Of a stretch of DNA of 44,856 nt, positions 19,135 through 29,704 are shown piece by piece (positions within the stretch are counted from its first letter, which is position 1; every line of letters starts with the position of its first letter). This DNA comes from an uncultured Lachnospiraceae bacterium. Its GTDB lineage: Bacteria > Bacillota > Clostridia > Lachnospirales > Lachnospiraceae. The translations under genes were made by a program, and so were the position numbers. A model generated the notes under the pieces. That model was not told the DNA's origin, searched no databases, and saw nothing but the letters and a program-made list of their open reading frames with translations. The stretch covers positions 1 through 44,856 of the forward strand of contig CALWRE010000235.1 in NCBI GenBank assembly GCA_944383835.1, in the 5' to 3' direction.

Positions 19135-20290
19135 GAAAGGGGATATCCGAAGCAAATTCCGCCGCCGGGTGCTTTACGATATCGTGGCCAGCGCGGTGAT
19201 CACCTGCGTTGCGGAGGCATTTCTGGTGCTGAATATCAATATAGTGACCGGATTTCTGCGCCAAAACGGGTATCAGTCCGGGCTTCTGGGTATGCGAAGC
19301 GCCGATATCCTTACCTGGATCTTTCTTTATCTTTTGATCGGAATTGCCATTTTCTGCATCAGTTTTCTCCTGCTGCAGGAAAGGGTCGCGAAATATATCG
19401 GGGAAATTTCCGACGCTATGGAGGAAATCTCCGACGGAAACCTTAACCTTTCCCTGGAGGTGAAGGGTGACGACGAGTTTGCCCAGATGGCTTCGAGCCT
19501 GAACCGGATGGCGGAGGATATCCGTGATCTGATGGAGAGGGAGAGGGAGTCGGAGCGGACCAAAAACGAGCTGATTACCAATGTGGCCCACGACCTGCGC
19601 ACTCCTCTGACCTCCGTGATCGGCTATCTGGAGCTTCTCTTGGCGGATAAGGTTCCCTCCGATGAGAAAAGAAAGGAATATCTGCAGGTTACCTACAATA
19701 AGGCCAAGCACCTGGAGCATCTGATTGAGGATTTGTTCGGGTTTACCAAGCTGAATTACGGAAAAATTTCCATGAAGGTGACCCAGGTGGACATTGTGCA
19801 GCTTCTGACGCAGCTGCTGGATGAATTCTATCCGAATTTTTCCGACAGCGATATGCATTATGAGATACACAGCAGCGAGAGAAGCATCCTGTTAAACGGC
19901 GATGGGAACCTCCTGGCCCGCCTTTTTGAAAACCTGATCGGCAACGCGATCAAATACGGGAAAGAGGGAAAGATCGTAAATGTGTATATAAGCCGGAAGG
20001 ACAACATTGCCGTCATATCGGTGGTGAATTATGGGTATGTGATTCCGGCCGATGAGCTGACGCATATCTTTGATAAATTTTACCGGGTGGATCAGGCCCG
20101 TTCCAGTTCGACGGGCGGAACCGGCCTGGGGCTTGCCATAGCAAAAAACATTGTGGAGATGCACGGCGGCTCCATTGAGGCGCGGAGCGATTTAAACGGT
20201 ACGGTATTCGAGGTAAGGCTGCGGACGGATTTTGACGTGAACCGGGAAAATTTTGAATTTCCCGGCAGTCCGGCGCCAGGGAAAGGATAG
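19124..20290 (+). CDS. Sensor histidine kinase, VanS-like
   Basis: 388 residues. Two membrane helices (about 15-40 and 62-86) flank a very short outer loop of about 20 residues, so it probably senses something within the membrane or through a partner. HAMP follows (about 88-138), then the H-box NVAHDLRTPLTSVIGY with H156, N-box NLIGNAIKYG and G-box STGGTGLGLAIAKNIVEMHGG. The start is a TTG that overlaps the end of the regulator gene by 11 bases; no better start exists near the first helix. The full catalytic core is present, so it should be active. The last 16 residues are non-conserved. Confidence 0.92.
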   Translation: MKSKKGDIRSKFRRRVLYDIVASAVITCVAEAFLVLNINIVTGFLRQNGYQSGLLGMRSADILTWIFLYLLIGIAIFCISFLLLQERVAKYIGEISDAMEEISDGNLNLSLEVKGDDEFAQMASSLNRMAEDIRDLMERERESERTKNELITNVAHDLRTPLTSVIGYLELLLADKVPSDEKRKEYLQVTYNKAKHLEHLIEDLFGFTKLNYGKISMKVTQVDIVQLLTQLLDEFYPNFSDSDMHYEIHSSERSILLNGDGNLLARLFENLIGNAIKYGKEGKIVNVYISRKDNIAVISVVNYGYVIPADELTHIFDKFYRVDQARSSSTGGTGLGLAIAKNIVEMHGGSIEARSDLNGTVFEVRLRTDFDVNRENFEFPGSPAPGKG

Positions 20291-20300
20291 GGCAGGCAGA

Positions 20301-22607
20301 ATGAAAAAAAGGCATCTGGCAGTTTTGGCTTTTATGCTGCTGATCTTCTTATGCGCCGGTTTTACGGCGTCGGCCAGTACATTGCAGGAGGGAAAAAACG
20401 CGGCGGAGATCGTATCAGCGCAGATAATCCCTTCGGCTGCTTCGTCCCAGGAGATACCGGTGAAGGTTACCGGCTTGGATGTGGAAATCATCTGGGATGA
20501 GAGCGGAGCCGTCAGGGTGGGCAGAGATCTCCCGATTACGGTGTGCGTAAAGAGCAGCGGCCCTGCGATTGATGGCTATGCGGCCGTCTATGCGCCGGCC
20601 AGCCAGGGAGAATATTATAAAATGGAAGAGAGCCTCAGCGTATCTGCCGGGGAGACAGCCGAGGCGTTTTTTAGTATTCCGGTGGATTACGGGACGGAAA
20701 TGCTTCTGGTCGAATTCCGCGATGCGGACGGAACCCTTTATGCCAGCGAAAAGCTGACGCTGCGGCCGGGCTATGGATACCAGGAGCTCTATGTCGGGGC
20801 GGTGAGCGAAGAAGAGGACGGCTTGGACGTCTTTGACCGGCTGGAGCTTAGCGAATACATGGGGATTACCACCCGGCTCTTCCCCCTCTCGGAGGAAAGC
20901 CTTCCGGACAGAGTCGAGGAATACAGGCTTTACGATATGATTCTGGTTGAAAACCTGGAGGAGATAACCCTGTCGGAACAGCAGCTGGAGAGCCTGGACA
21001 ACTGGGTTTACGAGGGAGGCGTGGCCATTATCGGAAACGGCGGGGCTCTGTCCGCCGCGGCTTCGGAAGGAGAGATGGTCCGGGAGCGCTGGGGAAAGGG
21101 CCTGTATGTATACTGCGTTTCCCCGCTGGGAGAGACGGCGGAGGGCTATGGGAATGAGGAGCAGGCCAGGAATTTCCTCTGCGACGCCATCGGAAGAGAG
21201 AGGCTCACGGCCCTGGAAAACAGCATTCAGATGGGAACCGAGCAGTATTGGAATGCGCGGAACATGACAGCCAGCGTAGACCCGGAGCGCCTGCCCCAGG
21301 TATGGGAGTATGCGGTTGTCCTGGGCGTCTACATCCTTGTTCTGGGGCCGCTTCTGTATGCGGTGCTGAAAAAGAAGGGACGCCAGAGCATGCTCAGGGC
21401 CTCGATGGTTGTTATCTCCCTGTTTTTTGCCGGCGTTATTTATCTGATGGGAAGCCGTACCCGCTTTACCAGCCCTTTTATGAATTACGTTTCGATTCAG
21501 GAGATACACGGCGGGACGGTGAGGGAGACTGCTTTTATCAATGTTAGCTCGCCTTACAATGCGGCGTACAGCTTCCGCGTAAATAAGAGCTTTGATGTGG
21601 CCCCGGTGGTTTCTTACGACTATCAGACAGGAACCTTTGACCCGGAAAATAATATCTGCCAGCTGGCAATCCGTTATGGGGAAGAGGAAACCGAGGTGGA
21701 AATCAATGACGATATCCCTTTTACCGCAGAGTATTTCCGCCTGAGCCGCAGCAGGGATCAGGTGTATGGGGAGGGCTTTTCGGGAGAAATCCATCTGTTC
21801 TGCGGGGAGGTTTCCGGCCGCCTGACCAACGAATCGGAAACCGCCTTTGAGAAGGTGTGCGTCTACGCCGGGGGATTCTTGATCATGGCCGGCGATATGG
21901 AGCCGGGGCAGCAGGTAGATCTGTCGCAGGTTCCGGTGTATTCCGTGCCCGCATACCGGCAGTACGAGATGGTGCAGGCTATTTCCGGCATGAACCGGTT
22001 CGAGACGGCAACGGAAAGCGTGGAGGCTTCGATTGCCGCATGGCGGAATGAGGTCGTCTCCTACTATGTGAACGATACCGTCTCGCGGGAGGATGAGGAC
22101 GCTGTGATTTTCGCCTTCCCTGCCCAGGAGACGGAGGAATTCTTAGAGGGCTCCGATTTCGATGTGAGAGGGGTAACCTTGGTCACCGCGTCGATGGATG
22201 TGGACTATACCAGAGACGGCCAGGTCTACGTCCCTATCCTTTCCCAGGCGCCGGAGGTGCTGCAGGGCAGCTATGACGCCTCCAATCATTCCACCTATCT
22301 GCAGCTGCTTGTGCTCCAGTATGACTTCGGAGATCTATTGGTGGACCGCATATTGATGGAATGGCCGGAGGAGCAGGAAGAGGACAGCTATATGAGGGCC
22401 TTCCGGGGGACGATGGAATTCTATAACTGGGAGACGCAAAGCTATGATCGGATAGAGGCGAAGGAGGAATATGACAGGGAGGAGCTGGAACCCTATCTCA
22501 GTGCGGACAACCATTTGATTGTGCGCTACGAGGACGGGGCGGCGGAAGAATATTCCTATCAGACCCTTCTTCCTGTGCTGAGCCTGGTCGGAAGGGAGAG
22601 GCCATGA
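20301..22607 (+). CDS. Large extracytoplasmic protein with two central membrane helices
   Basis: 768 residues. It has a signal peptide (1-26), an outer N-terminal region of about 300 residues containing a glutamine-amidotransferase-like or DUF4350-like fold (YDMILVENLEEITL, LDNWVYEGGVAIIGNGG), two membrane helices (about 336-355 and 366-384), and an outer C-terminal half. No catalytic motif is evident. It overlaps the ABC ATPase gene (ATGA) and sits between VanS and the transporter, so it probably acts with the transporter as a sensor or accessory subunit. The ATG at 20301 has a weak ribosome site (AGGCAG); the signal peptide begins there, which decides the start. The name beyond a general fold is uncertain. 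Confidence 0.7.
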   Translation: MKKRHLAVLAFMLLIFLCAGFTASASTLQEGKNAAEIVSAQIIPSAASSQEIPVKVTGLDVEIIWDESGAVRVGRDLPITVCVKSSGPAIDGYAAVYAPASQGEYYKMEESLSVSAGETAEAFFSIPVDYGTEMLLVEFRDADGTLYASEKLTLRPGYGYQELYVGAVSEEEDGLDVFDRLELSEYMGITTRLFPLSEESLPDRVEEYRLYDMILVENLEEITLSEQQLESLDNWVYEGGVAIIGNGGALSAAASEGEMVRERWGKGLYVYCVSPLGETAEGYGNEEQARNFLCDAIGRERLTALENSIQMGTEQYWNARNMTASVDPERLPQVWEYAVVLGVYILVLGPLLYAVLKKKGRQSMLRASMVVISLFFAGVIYLMGSRTRFTSPFMNYVSIQEIHGGTVRETAFINVSSPYNAAYSFRVNKSFDVAPVVSYDYQTGTFDPENNICQLAIRYGEEETEVEINDDIPFTAEYFRLSRSRDQVYGEGFSGEIHLFCGEVSGRLTNESETAFEKVCVYAGGFLIMAGDMEPGQQVDLSQVPVYSVPAYRQYEMVQAISGMNRFETATESVEASIAAWRNEVVSYYVNDTVSREDEDAVIFAFPAQETEEFLEGSDFDVRGVTLVTASMDVDYTRDGQVYVPILSQAPEVLQGSYDASNHSTYLQLLVLQYDFGDLLVDRILMEWPEEQEEDSYMRAFRGTMEFYNWETQSYDRIEAKEEYDREELEPYLSADNHLIVRYEDGAAEEYSYQTLLPVLSLVGRERP

Positions 22608-26985: not shown

Positions 26986-27014
26986 TTGAGAGAACCTCTG
27001 CTTTCCTTTATAAT
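26986..27014 (+). promoter_or_regulatory. SigA-type promoter for the GlgX-like gene
   Basis: TTGAGA (26986-26991), exactly 17 bases and a perfect TATAAT (27009-27014). The start codon follows 44 bases later. Confidence 0.75.
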
Positions 27015-27057
27015 GAAAGGGAAAGGAAATGGTGCGGTTTGCCGGAAAGGAGAAAAG

Positions 27058-29043
27058 ATGGCGCAGAAAATCAGGAGGATTTCGGGTGCGGACGGTTTCC
27101 CCTATCTTTTAGGGGTGTCCGTGGAAGGAAAAAATACGAATTTTACAGCAGTGGCGTCAAAGGAGGATGAGGCGGCGCTGATTTTATATGAAAAGGGGGA
27201 GGAAAAGCCCTGTGCCAGATATCCTTTTCCGGAGGATGGCTTTGGCAATGTGAGGCGGATTACTCTGTCCGGCGTAGACCGGGAGCGGATGGAATACTGC
27301 CTGGAGATCGGCGGGGAGGAGCTGGCGGACCCGTACAGCCGGGTAGTCTATGGAAGGCCGGCCTTCGGCCAGGGACGCCCGGCCGAGCCGAAATCCCCCT
27401 ATGCCTATTACGGAATAAAAAAAGAGGAAAAGAAGGTTCCGTCGGCCCTGCGAAGCGGCTTTCTGCAGGATGGGTATGACTGGGAGGGGGACAGGCCCCT
27501 GCATCACGCCTGGGCGGACACGATTCTCTACCAGCTTCATGTCAGGGGCTTTACGATGGATGAATCCTCGGGGGTGAAAGCGCCGGGGACTTTCTTTGGC
27601 CTTGTCGAGAAGATTCCGTATCTGAAAGAGCTGGGCGTCACCGCGGTGGAGCTTCTGCCGGTTTATGATTTCAGCGAAAACGGCGCGGCCGGGCCGGTGA
27701 ATTACTGGGGCTATACGGAGGGCTATTATTTTGCGCCCAAAAGCGCCTATTGCGATAAGTCCTCCGCCTTGCCTGCCGACGTGCAGTTTAAGGATATGGT
27801 GAAGGAGCTGCACCGGGCCGGGATCGAGGTGATTCTGCAGTTTTATTTTCCTGCGGGGACGCAGCCGGAGCTGGCCGCTTCGGTCCTTCACTTCTGGGCG
27901 CAGGAATATCATGCGGACGGTTTCTGTGTGATGGGGGATTTTCCTCTGTCTCTGATTCAGCGGGATCCTCTTCTGGCCGGGTGCAAGCTTTTGAACTACG
28001 ATTGGGGGATGGAGGACTGTCCCACGAGGCCGGCCAGGCTGGACAGCAGCTTTATGGAGGCGATGCGCCGCCTGCTGCGGGGGGATGAGGATCAGCTGAA
28101 AGGCTTGACCTACCATATTAAGAATAATCCGAGGAAATGGCCGCCGGTGCATTACATAGCGGAGACCAATGGATTTACGCTGATGGACCTGGTCTCCTAC
28201 GAGACGAAGCATAATGAGGAGAACGGGGAGAGCAACCGGGACGGCTGCTGGTATAATTTCAGCGATAACTGCGGGGTGGAGGGGCCTTCTGAGGATCCGG
28301 CGGTCTGCCGGCTGCGCCTGCGCCAGCGGATGAACGCCCTGCTCCTGGTATTTTTAAGCCAGGGCGTGCCGCTTTTACAGGCCGGGGATGAGCTGGGCCA
28401 TACCAAGGAGGGCAATAACAACTCCTGGTGTCAGGACAATGAGATTTCCTGGCTGAACTGGAAGATGGACAGCGAGGAGAAGCGGGCCTTTCTGGAGTTC
28501 GTCCGCACCCTGATCGCCTTCCGGCGGGAGCATGGGGTGTTCCGGCAGGCTACGGAGCCCCAGTGCTGCGATTACCGTTCCCTGGGCATGCCGGATCTGT
28601 CGATCCACGGAATCCACCCCTGGCTGCCCCAATATGAGAATTTCCGCCGCCAGCTGGCCGTGCTCTATAATGGAGGCTACGGAGAAAAGCCAGGAGGGGG
28701 GCCGGACGACAGCTTTTATCTGGTCTTTAATTTCCATGGCTCGCCCCACGGGTTTTATCTGCCGAAGGCCCCCGGAGGCGGCGACTGGTATGTCAAGCTG
28801 GATACGGGAAGAGAAGAAGTCTGGCTGCCGGATGGAGAAGAGATAGAGACAGAGGAAGGACAGCTGGAGGCAGCTCCCCGCAGCATCGTACTGCTGGTGG
28901 AAAAGGCCGGGAAAAAAGCCGAAAAAAAGAAGAAGGCAAAGACGGGAAGGACGGCGAAGGCCGCAGAGACAGCGAAAGATAGGAAAGCGGTCCAGGTGGA
29001 AGCAGAACCGGACGGCAGCAAGAAGAAAAATGAAAAAGATTGA
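27058..29043 (+). CDS. GlgX-like GH13 protein without catalytic residues
   Basis: 661 residues. The scaffold matches glycogen-debranching/isoamylase proteins: an N-terminal CBM48-like domain, LYQLHVRGFTMDESSG, ELGVTAVELLPVYDF, NYWGYTEGYYFAPKSAY, GFTLMDLVSYETKHNEENGE, NRDG and NNNSWCQDNEISWLNW. Yet all four catalytic regions are altered. Region I reads VILQFYFPAGT (257-268), not DVVFNHT. Region II reads DGFCVMGD (287-294), without the GFRFD arginine and nucleophile aspartate. Region III reads LLNYDWG (311-317), without the acid/base glutamate. Region IV reads AETNGF (368-373), not the usual HDGF. A lysine-rich tail follows. It is probably a glucan-binding or regulatory pseudoenzyme. The ATG at 27058 follows AAAGGAG. 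It overlaps the TraX-like gene by 14 bases. Confidence 0.85.
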   Translation: MAQKIRRISGADGFPYLLGVSVEGKNTNFTAVASKEDEAALILYEKGEEKPCARYPFPEDGFGNVRRITLSGVDRERMEYCLEIGGEELADPYSRVVYGRPAFGQGRPAEPKSPYAYYGIKKEEKKVPSALRSGFLQDGYDWEGDRPLHHAWADTILYQLHVRGFTMDESSGVKAPGTFFGLVEKIPYLKELGVTAVELLPVYDFSENGAAGPVNYWGYTEGYYFAPKSAYCDKSSALPADVQFKDMVKELHRAGIEVILQFYFPAGTQPELAASVLHFWAQEYHADGFCVMGDFPLSLIQRDPLLAGCKLLNYDWGMEDCPTRPARLDSSFMEAMRRLLRGDEDQLKGLTYHIKNNPRKWPPVHYIAETNGFTLMDLVSYETKHNEENGESNRDGCWYNFSDNCGVEGPSEDPAVCRLRLRQRMNALLLVFLSQGVPLLQAGDELGHTKEGNNNSWCQDNEISWLNWKMDSEEKRAFLEFVRTLIAFRREHGVFRQATEPQCCDYRSLGMPDLSIHGIHPWLPQYENFRRQLAVLYNGGYGEKPGGGPDDSFYLVFNFHGSPHGFYLPKAPGGGDWYVKLDTGREEVWLPDGEEIETEEGQLEAAPRSIVLLVEKAGKKAEKKKKAKTGRTAKAAETAKDRKAVQVEAEPDGSKKKNEKD

Positions 29044-29704
29044 GCTGAATGGAACACAGTTAAAGAGTATCGCATTGGCGACCATGGCCGCGGATCATTT
29101 TGCCGTGGCCTTTCTGGAGCCCTGGGGCCCAGCCTGGCTGACGCTGCGCCTGATCGGTCGGCTGGCCTTCCCGCTGTACTGCTTTTTGCTGACGGAGGGC
29201 TTCTGCCATACCCGCAGCGTGGGCCGGTATCTGATGCGGCTGGGGATTTTCGCCTTGCTCAGCGAAATCCCCTTTGACTGGATGAACGGGGAGGGGCCGC
29301 TGACCTTTTCCCATCAGAATGTATTTTTCACGCTGTTTTTGGGCCTTGCCGCTCTGTGGGGATTGGTTTGGTTCATGAACCGCCAGCAGCCTGTGACCGC
29401 CGTGCTCTGGTGCGGGGCGATGGCGGTTCTGGCGGGGGTTTGCCGGACGGATTACGGGGCGGCCGGCGTGATCCTCATCGTTCTCTTATATTACTTCCGG
29501 GAGGATCCTTCCAGAAGGCTGGCCCTCGGCTATGGGGTCCTCCTTCTGGGGGCGGGGACGATGGAATTCACCGCCATAGGGAGCTTCTTTCTGTTGGAGT
29601 TCTATAACGGGGAGAGGGGCCGGGGCCCGCGGCAGCTGTTTTACTGGTTATATCCCCTGCATCTGCTGGCGTTTGCGGCTATCCGTATGCTGTTTGCCGG
29701 CTGA
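29030..29704 (+). CDS. TraX family membrane protein
   Basis: 224 residues with about six to seven membrane helices. The opening ELNGTQLKSIALATMAADHFA, RLIGRLAFPLYCFLLTEGFCHTRS and the end FYWLYPLHLLAFAAIRML are typical of TraX, named for a plasmid gene needed for pilin acetylation, but widely found in Firmicute chromosomes with unknown acceptor. No conjugation genes are near. The start lies inside the end of the GlgX-like gene, so the two are probably translated together. It is complete. Confidence 0.9.
   Translation: MKKIELNGTQLKSIALATMAADHFAVAFLEPWGPAWLTLRLIGRLAFPLYCFLLTEGFCHTRSVGRYLMRLGIFALLSEIPFDWMNGEGPLTFSHQNVFFTLFLGLAALWGLVWFMNRQQPVTAVLWCGAMAVLAGVCRTDYGAAGVILIVLLYYFREDPSRRLALGYGVLLLGAGTMEFTAIGSFFLLEFYNGERGRGPRQLFYWLYPLHLLAFAAIRMLFAG

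Follow-up and report, generated by a model that had tools for sequence, protein, structure and literature searches.

A GlgX homologue lacking every catalytic residue, and its conserved family in Lachnospiraceae

The window analysed here is a stretch of 44,856 nucleotides (contig CALWRE010000235.1 of assembly GCA_944383835.1) from an uncultured Lachnospiraceae bacterium. One of its genes, at 27058-29043 and called pseudo-GlgX below, encodes a homologue of the glycogen debranching enzyme GlgX and of isoamylase (glycoside hydrolase subfamily GH13_11) in which every catalytic residue is replaced, as an alignment with canonical GlgX confirms. The protein and its relatives are almost certainly pseudoenzymes. 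They probably constitute a family of single origin, derived from a GH13_11 debranching enzyme and serving a non-chemical role in binding, scaffolding or regulation. The gene and the principal features of its product are listed here, with residue numbers referring to the product.

27058-29043, forward strand: pseudo-GlgX gene (ATG at 27058, stop codon at 29041-29043, 661 amino acids, no internal stops).
27826-27861, forward strand: former GH13 region I (residues 257-268, EVILQFYFPAGT), without the catalytic Asp, Asn and His.
27862-27867 (approximate), forward strand: deletion of about 44 residues relative to canonical GlgX, in the loop after region I; the loop columns conserved in canonical GlgX are gapped in the pseudo rows (fraction 1.0).
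27916-27939, forward strand: former region II (residues 287-294, DGFCVMGD), without its Arg and its nucleophile Asp.
27988-28008, forward strand: former region III (residues 311-317, LLNYDWG), which retains Trp316 but not the acid/base Glu.
28159-28176, forward strand: former region IV (residues 368-373, AETNGF), without its His-Asp.
28171-28467, forward strand: retained block (residues 372-470, with GFTLMDLVSY, NRDG, GDELG and NNNSWCQDN); of 36 columns near-invariant in canonical GlgX, the pseudo family still has 33 at 80% or more.
28906-29040, forward strand: lysine-rich, fast-changing C-terminal tail (about residues 617-661) that does not resemble GlgX; predicted local distance difference test (pLDDT) values of 41-63.

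The nearest model is TIGR02100, the GlgX equivalog of NCBIfam, which the protein matches at 301.8 bits (E 8e-90) against a cut-off of 640.9 bits; some canonical GlgX of the window's family also fall below this cut-off. A sequence search of the PDB returns isoamylase and GlgX at E about 2e-71 (phmmer E 1.6e-71), and in the three alignments shown the match ends after residue 264-265, at region I. Against 66 canonical GlgX, region I has changed from Asp to Gln261, Asn to Pro265 and His to Ala266, region II from Arg to Cys290 and from the nucleophile Asp to Met292, region III from the acid/base Glu to Tyr314 (with Trp316 retained), and region IV from His to Thr370 and Asp to Asn371. The initial annotation of this DNA had described all four regions as altered, and the alignment bears out every loss and residue range that it gave. 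The non-catalytic GlgX signatures that it described as preserved (GFTLMDLVSY, NRDG and NNNSWCQDNEISWLNW) are all present in the window protein. Its claim of likeness to GlgX over 660 residues holds in part: the likeness is real and covers about 615 residues, while the tail is unlike GlgX; neither this tail nor the deletion after region I had been noted there. The first part of this tail (residues 616-648) has 42% identity to that of the genus mate L010.

To place these losses in a family-wide context, relatives were gathered from whole genomes and named records (the best 80 of 593), their frames were read and they were aligned with canonical GlgX. The census contains 137 pseudo sequences, window included, and 66 canonical GlgX. 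A 14-residue reading (L169) was left out, and L042 and L046-L053 (other GH13 proteins or duplicates) and the fragments L083 and L136 were dropped before alignment. Five residues were scored: the region I Asp, the region II Arg and nucleophile Asp, the region III Glu and the region IV Asp. All five are present in 65 of the 66 canonical sequences, the exception (L171) being gapped in region IV. Among the 137 pseudo sequences, 67 retain none, 58 retain one and 12 retain two. Taken residue by residue, the region III Glu survives in 19 of the 137 and the region IV Asp in 27.

The losses are confined to one part of the protein, its catalytic face. Of 156 columns conserved at 95% or more in canonical GlgX, 73 lie within residues 257-371 and 83 elsewhere. 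Columns kept in no more than 20% of the pseudo family number 55 of the 73 within this segment, compared with 1 of the 83 outside it (Fisher p 4e-25); 66 of the 83 outside are retained at 80% or more. The 55 lost columns divide into 24 that are deleted and 31 that are substituted, and the pseudo sequences generally, not only the window protein, lack the loop of some 44 residues that follows region I. In both groups, pseudo and canonical, 67 columns reach at least 90% conservation.

Could the barrel have acquired a different catalytic chemistry? The fold is kept, and so are some residues at the barrel mouth (Trp217 in 137/137; Tyr219 in 122/137, with Phe in the other 15). However, a new reaction common to the family would require a conserved site of its own, and the former catalytic columns vary freely. 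The mean entropy of the eight such columns in the pseudo family is 2.7 bits, compared with 2.08 over residues 1-615 (individual columns range from the 30th to the 96th percentile), so that the old site has not been turned into a new conserved one. The only columns conserved in the pseudo family yet rare in canonical GlgX are Gln435 and Asp505, and Asp505 lies after the barrel. A new enzyme is for these reasons very improbable. Nor is there any candidate for a catalytic Asp or Glu relocated elsewhere in the protein, the finding that would have spoken against the initial annotation: relocation is rejected, there being no pseudo-specific conserved acid pair, and the structural register agrees.

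This register comes from an AlphaFold model built with a 44-sequence alignment (L158 left out; mean pLDDT 83.7, predicted template modelling score 0.86), which shows an N-terminal beta domain, a barrel and a C-terminal beta domain. The former catalytic positions coincide with the C-terminal ends of strands 257-264, 288-293, 310-313 and 363-365 or follow them directly, and this placement supports the alignment. Confidence is low in the tail and, inside the conserved block, at residues of about 381-410 and 451-460. The best Foldseek matches are ISA1, ISA1-ISA2 complexes and GlgX, with template modelling scores (TM-scores) by query of 0.71-0.78 over the 50 rows shown and of 0.75-0.78 over the top 45. 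Kinship with the GH13_11 fold is thus upheld by phmmer (E 1.6e-71), by Foldseek (E 4.9e-50) and by the 67 shared conserved columns.

A tree was made by a quick method from 67 of the 203 aligned sequences; it is unrooted, includes three long pseudo rows and draws its canonical rows from ten phyla, going by their titles. It places 32 pseudo and 35 canonical sequences on opposite sides of one branch (Shimodaira-Hasegawa-like approximate likelihood ratio test, SH-aLRT, 100). This split rules out a recent loss within the genus of the window.

The distribution of the gene was followed by profile searches; in the family, order and class searches, scoring was limited to the 3-8 best candidates of each genome. 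In a sample of 150 genomes from the window's family (taken as Lachnospiraceae from the titles of named carriers), the pseudo form occurs in 124, that is, 125 matches at E <=1e-100 minus G004, which is canonical. When completeness of 90% or more and contamination of 5% or less are required, the figure is 105/125 with a match, G004 included, and five genomes without a pseudo match in the family sample were identified by elimination. A search for a conserved pseudoenzyme clade in this family had been suggested; together with the SH-aLRT 100 branch, these counts show that such a clade exists. Canonical GlgX was found in 45 of the 150 genomes (with a threshold of 600 bits and the fragmentary cases G042 and G048 added), and 25 of these 45 exceed the TIGR02100 cut-off. 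Within the genus sample (n=7), five genomes have a clear pseudo match and two (G299 and G302) have none; canonical GlgX is also present in three.

At the level of the order (n=295), single-piece matches of at least 600 bits occur in 45 genomes, all of the window's family, of which 48 genomes are listed (16 genomes without a match are not listed). At the level of the class (n=391, E <=1e-120), matches occur in 14 genomes of the window's family and in G891 from another family. The residues of G891 (in all four regions) and of G004 are canonical, and once G891 is set aside no dead form was found outside the window's family in this class-wide sample of 391. Named carriers are mostly titled as Lachnospiraceae or its genera, the rest being unplaced Clostridia/Bacillota, Eubacterium sp. 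and one Clostridium sp. They include strain records, Velocimicrobium porci (L152) and Butyrivibrio sp. WCD3002 (L179).

Decay of the gene, or an assembly or sequencing artefact, was also considered. The assembly of the window genome is in 244 contigs and 86.6% complete, and short frames occur in G074, G147 and G143, though these run into contig ends. Against this, 137 sequences are in the same state, and the strain records that carry pseudo-GlgX exclude an assembly artefact. The frames of the 136 relatives are 557-863 amino acids long (median 623). The gene is also under purifying selection. Between the window gene and its nearest relative, L010 (79% identity), the nonsynonymous (dN) and synonymous (dS) distances are 0.143 and 1.091, a ratio of about 0.13; over residues 257-372, the dead face, they are 0.061 and 1.028, a ratio of 0.06. 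For the pair L039-L041, the whole gene has dN 0.089 and dS 0.690, and the dead face 0.080 and 0.661. Canonical same-genus pairs give dN and dS of 0.067 and 0.658, 0.118 and 1.282, and 0.124 and 1.356. Constraint on the pseudo gene thus comes close to that on the active one (about 0.13 compared with 0.09-0.10), these ratios being rough because dS near or above 1 is close to saturation. The values support the earlier proposal of selection for a function other than hydrolysis. We reject the explanation by decay or artefact, which is scarcely credible in view of the conservation across the family, the strain records and the purifying selection.

Two relatives in the census, from different genera, deserve separate mention: in L026 and L123, among the 136 relatives searched, the C-terminal 160 or so residues are a fused 6-O-methylguanine-DNA methyltransferase (PF01035 and PF02870). 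The longest frame, L158 (863 amino acids), is a pseudo-GlgX with a long repetitive C-terminal extension.

The expression signals described in the initial annotation, a well-spaced promoter and a ribosome site, are both in place, and the frame of 661 amino acids is uninterrupted, as it had stated.

26986-27014, forward strand: sigma-70-like promoter TTGAGA-17-TATAAT (11/12 matches; a consensus match only).
27046-27052, forward strand: ribosome-binding site AAAGGAG, 5 nt before the ATG.

There are two promoter-like sites in a 301-base stretch, compared with a mean of 0.5 in shuffles. A TTG start at 26986 is possible for the mechanically defined open reading frame (ORF), while the ribosome site belongs to the ATG at 27058. 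In L010, GAGAGGAG occupies the position equivalent to this ribosome site; its promoter region aligns poorly with that of the window.

The metabolic setting of the carriers is one of glycogen synthesis. GlgA (glycogen synthase) is present in 146 of the 150 family genomes and GlgD-type proteins (glgC/D) in 147. Type I pullulanase exceeds its cut-off in 36/150 and a GH133 domain occurs in 27/150. Glycogen synthase is found in 122 of the 124 carriers and in 24 of the 26 non-carriers. Canonical GlgX, type I pullulanase and GH133 are all undetected in 58 of the 124 carriers, the window genome included, and in 18 of the 26 non-carriers; 57 of these 58 pseudo-only genomes have glycogen synthase. The window genome itself has GlgA, a GlgC/D-type gene and GlgB, together with a protein nearest to maltodextrin glucosidase and cyclomaltodextrinase but below both cut-offs. 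As this genome is 86.6% complete, the absence of the debranching families from it is provisional.

These data bear on the possibility that pseudo-GlgX is a regulatory subunit similar to plant ISA2, forming a hetero-complex with a glucan enzyme (GlgX or else GlgB, GlgA, GlgP or another GH13 protein) and setting glycogen structure or turnover. Plant ISA2 is the closest functional parallel (judging from the available part of PMC12510319), and at least four of the five residues are changed in 125 of the 137 sequences here. The glycogen synthesis genes are present nearly throughout the sample, the window's own genome included. Canonical GlgX is commoner in carriers (42/124) than in non-carriers (3/26), at p 0.03 in one of five tests, uncorrected and with kinship ignored; the other four carrier/non-carrier tests give p 0.05-0.62. 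The two forms are also found close together in 2 of the 42 genomes having both, many of the others carrying them on separate contigs. In G126 (L240:5149-11738), canonical glgX comes first on a single strand, followed by an ABC ATPase gene, pseudo-glgX and traX; the first two genes overlap, as do the last two, and about 100 bp separates the pairs. In G133, the genome of L087, canonical and pseudo glgX converge within 2 kb. On the other side stand the lack of a canonical GlgX in most carriers, the 58 without any of the three debranching families (a state shared by 18 of the 26 non-carriers), an eroded CBM_48 and a near absence of glycogen-type neighbours. A subunit of this kind thus appears unlikely, although glycogen machinery as the target is favoured by the ancestry of the protein and its glycogen-making background.

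The gene neighbourhood was examined in 61 loci (60 fetched, plus the window) containing 509 ORFs. In the window, the next gene downstream is the following.

29030-29704, forward strand: TraX-family gene (Pfam PF05857, E 2.8e-38), with a 14-bp overlap with the pseudo-GlgX gene.

The most frequent next gene is DUF5662 (23/61), with TraX in 17/61; DUF5662 comes second after TraX in 5 more. These names rest on Pfam searches of the window's TraX and two representatives. TraX or DUF5662 is therefore next in 40 of the 61 loci, spanning different genera, and 37 of these 40 next genes overlap pseudo-glgX or start at most 40 bp away (ORF starts were set mechanically and overlaps are possibly overstated). 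The protein might accordingly have left glycogen metabolism to serve another process with TraX and DUF5662, for example a membrane-linked module modifying or sensing a surface or storage glycan, with the GlgX fold as scaffold. In favour of this target are the neighbourhood and the fact that most carriers show no GlgX to pair with. However, neither gene adjoins pseudo-glgX in 21 of the 61 loci, and the shared neighbours may be inherited synteny. The literature searches found no role for either in these bacteria: a full-text search of the collection covered found no paper naming DUF5662, and of 385 papers matched for TraX the 8 listed include none relevant by title. We consider this explanation doubtful.

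Other neighbours were assigned by the look of their sequences. In 13 of the 61 loci a gene resembling exonuclease III lies upstream, and further neighbours are presumably LuxS, FabH, DUF1292, a UvrD-like protein and an 'ABC-F' protein. Elsewhere in the window, a 784-residue ORF at 20253-22604 adjoins ABC-2 transporter genes and has no Pfam match at E <=1e-4.

The reading that we favour is thus that of a non-cutting family of single origin, and its role is most likely that of a binding or scaffold protein, by analogy with plant ISA2. An ancestral GH13_11 debranching enzyme would have lost its catalytic set and the loop after region I once, and the product is carried by about five-sixths of the sampled family genomes. 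The parts kept are the fold, strands 1-2 with their loops, the segment 372-470 and the C-terminal domain. An alpha-glucan or a protein partner may bind at this segment and the opened cleft, in the manner attributed to the non-catalytic plant ISA2, and pseudo-GlgX may work in many genera with the products of the adjoining genes (TraX and DUF5662).

Several observations weigh against this reading. The label 'canonical' was defined by the NH of region I and the Asp of region II, and these columns, unlike the region II Arg and regions III and IV, are not independent of it. Of the 137 pseudo members, 12 still hold two of the five catalytic residues. Most of the 124 carriers were assigned by profile match alone, residues not being inspected, and no copy of the gene was seen in 26 of the 150 family genomes. 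The near-universal presence of glgA and glgC/D makes their co-occurrence uninformative on function. Canonical GlgX was not detected in 82 of the 124 carriers, which speaks against a pairing of the ISA1-ISA2 kind with GlgX as a general rule. BLAST searches of the 509 ORFs with glycogen synthase, GlgD, GlgB, canonical GlgX, type I pullulanase and a GH133 protein found one glycogen or debranching neighbour in the 61 loci, the canonical GlgX in L087 (phosphorylase was not searched for). Finally, the CBM48 glycogen-binding signature is eroded in sequence, although a beta domain is still predicted in its place: Pfam CBM_48 is found at E <=0.01 in 5 of 44 pseudo members, the window not among them, and weakly in one of two further members, compared with 8/8 canonical controls (chosen from the 66), while the model has a confident N-terminal beta domain where CBM48 would sit.

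The initial annotation had suggested glucan binding or the control of other glycogen enzymes. This is not shown by the present data, given the single glycogen-type neighbour in 61 loci, CBM_48 in 5/44 members and the 82/124 carriers without canonical GlgX; a glycogen role nevertheless remains plausible. More tentatively, an early Lachnospiraceae ancestor might have made its debranching enzyme non-catalytic, independently of ISA2, the product being retained by most of the family, with subsequent recruitment into a new TraX/DUF5662 module that organises glycogen without an active isoamylase partner or acts outside glycogen.

Lachnospiraceae are prominent gut bacteria, and surveys of GlgX made by likeness may credit many of them with glycogen debranching. 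Pseudo-GlgX should not be annotated as a glycogen debranching enzyme. In 82 of the 150 sampled genomes the dead form is the sole GlgX seen, and 58 of the 150 additionally show neither type I pullulanase nor GH133.

Some published second copies of glgX may belong to the pseudo family, judging from their descriptions and not from their sequences. In the available part of PMC5716241, glgX2 of Butyrivibrio hungatei MB2003 (bhn_I1315) is a GH13 protein of 648 amino acids without CBM48, published as a glycogen debranching enzyme, while glgX1 has 726 amino acids and a CBM48. The former is similar to the pseudo family in its size and in having no CBM48 listed. Two glgX homologues are counted for Blautia obeum in the part of PMC10395257 available to us. 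A full-text literature search, with most subscription journals outside its coverage, found no paper on a catalytically dead bacterial GlgX among the matches listed, and the words 'catalytically inactive' and 'pseudoenzyme' are not present in the accessible part of PMC11046441.

Three known systems can be compared with pseudo-GlgX. GlgD is present in the same genomes but belongs to a different step of the pathway; its fold also differs from that of GlgX. It is described as a regulatory subunit of GlgC, an active catalytic partner (PMC10395257, same part). Bacterial GlgX/isoamylase (CAZy GH13_11; TIGR02100; 7u39 and 2wsk) resembles the window protein in having an N-terminal beta domain, a barrel and a C-terminal domain, in the 67 columns conserved in both and in structure (TM-score by query 0.78 with 7u39_A and 0.71 with 2wsk). 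The pseudo form differs in its replaced catalytic residues, the deleted loop of about 44 residues, its eroded CBM_48, a score far under the equivalog cut-off and the lack of regular glg neighbours.

Plant ISA2 is the third. Foldseek matches its structure 9j6x chain C with a TM-score by query of 0.72 (another ISA2 structure is 9xvi chain C). ISA2 alone has an extra N-terminal beta-sandwich, the window model having one N-terminal beta domain (strands within residues 9-89). ISA2 works with an active ISA1, whereas two-thirds of pseudo-GlgX carriers show no canonical GlgX, and the origin of the pseudo family would be separate from that of ISA2, going by a tree without ISA2. According to the portion of PMC12510319 at hand, ISA2 is a GH13_11 protein found in ISA1/ISA2 complexes, with at least four of the five catalytic residues changed in every ISA2 examined. 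It is, like the pseudo family, non-catalytic, old and kept across a whole lineage (same source), and the pseudo-GlgX family offers a bacterial system for asking what a non-catalytic isoamylase does.

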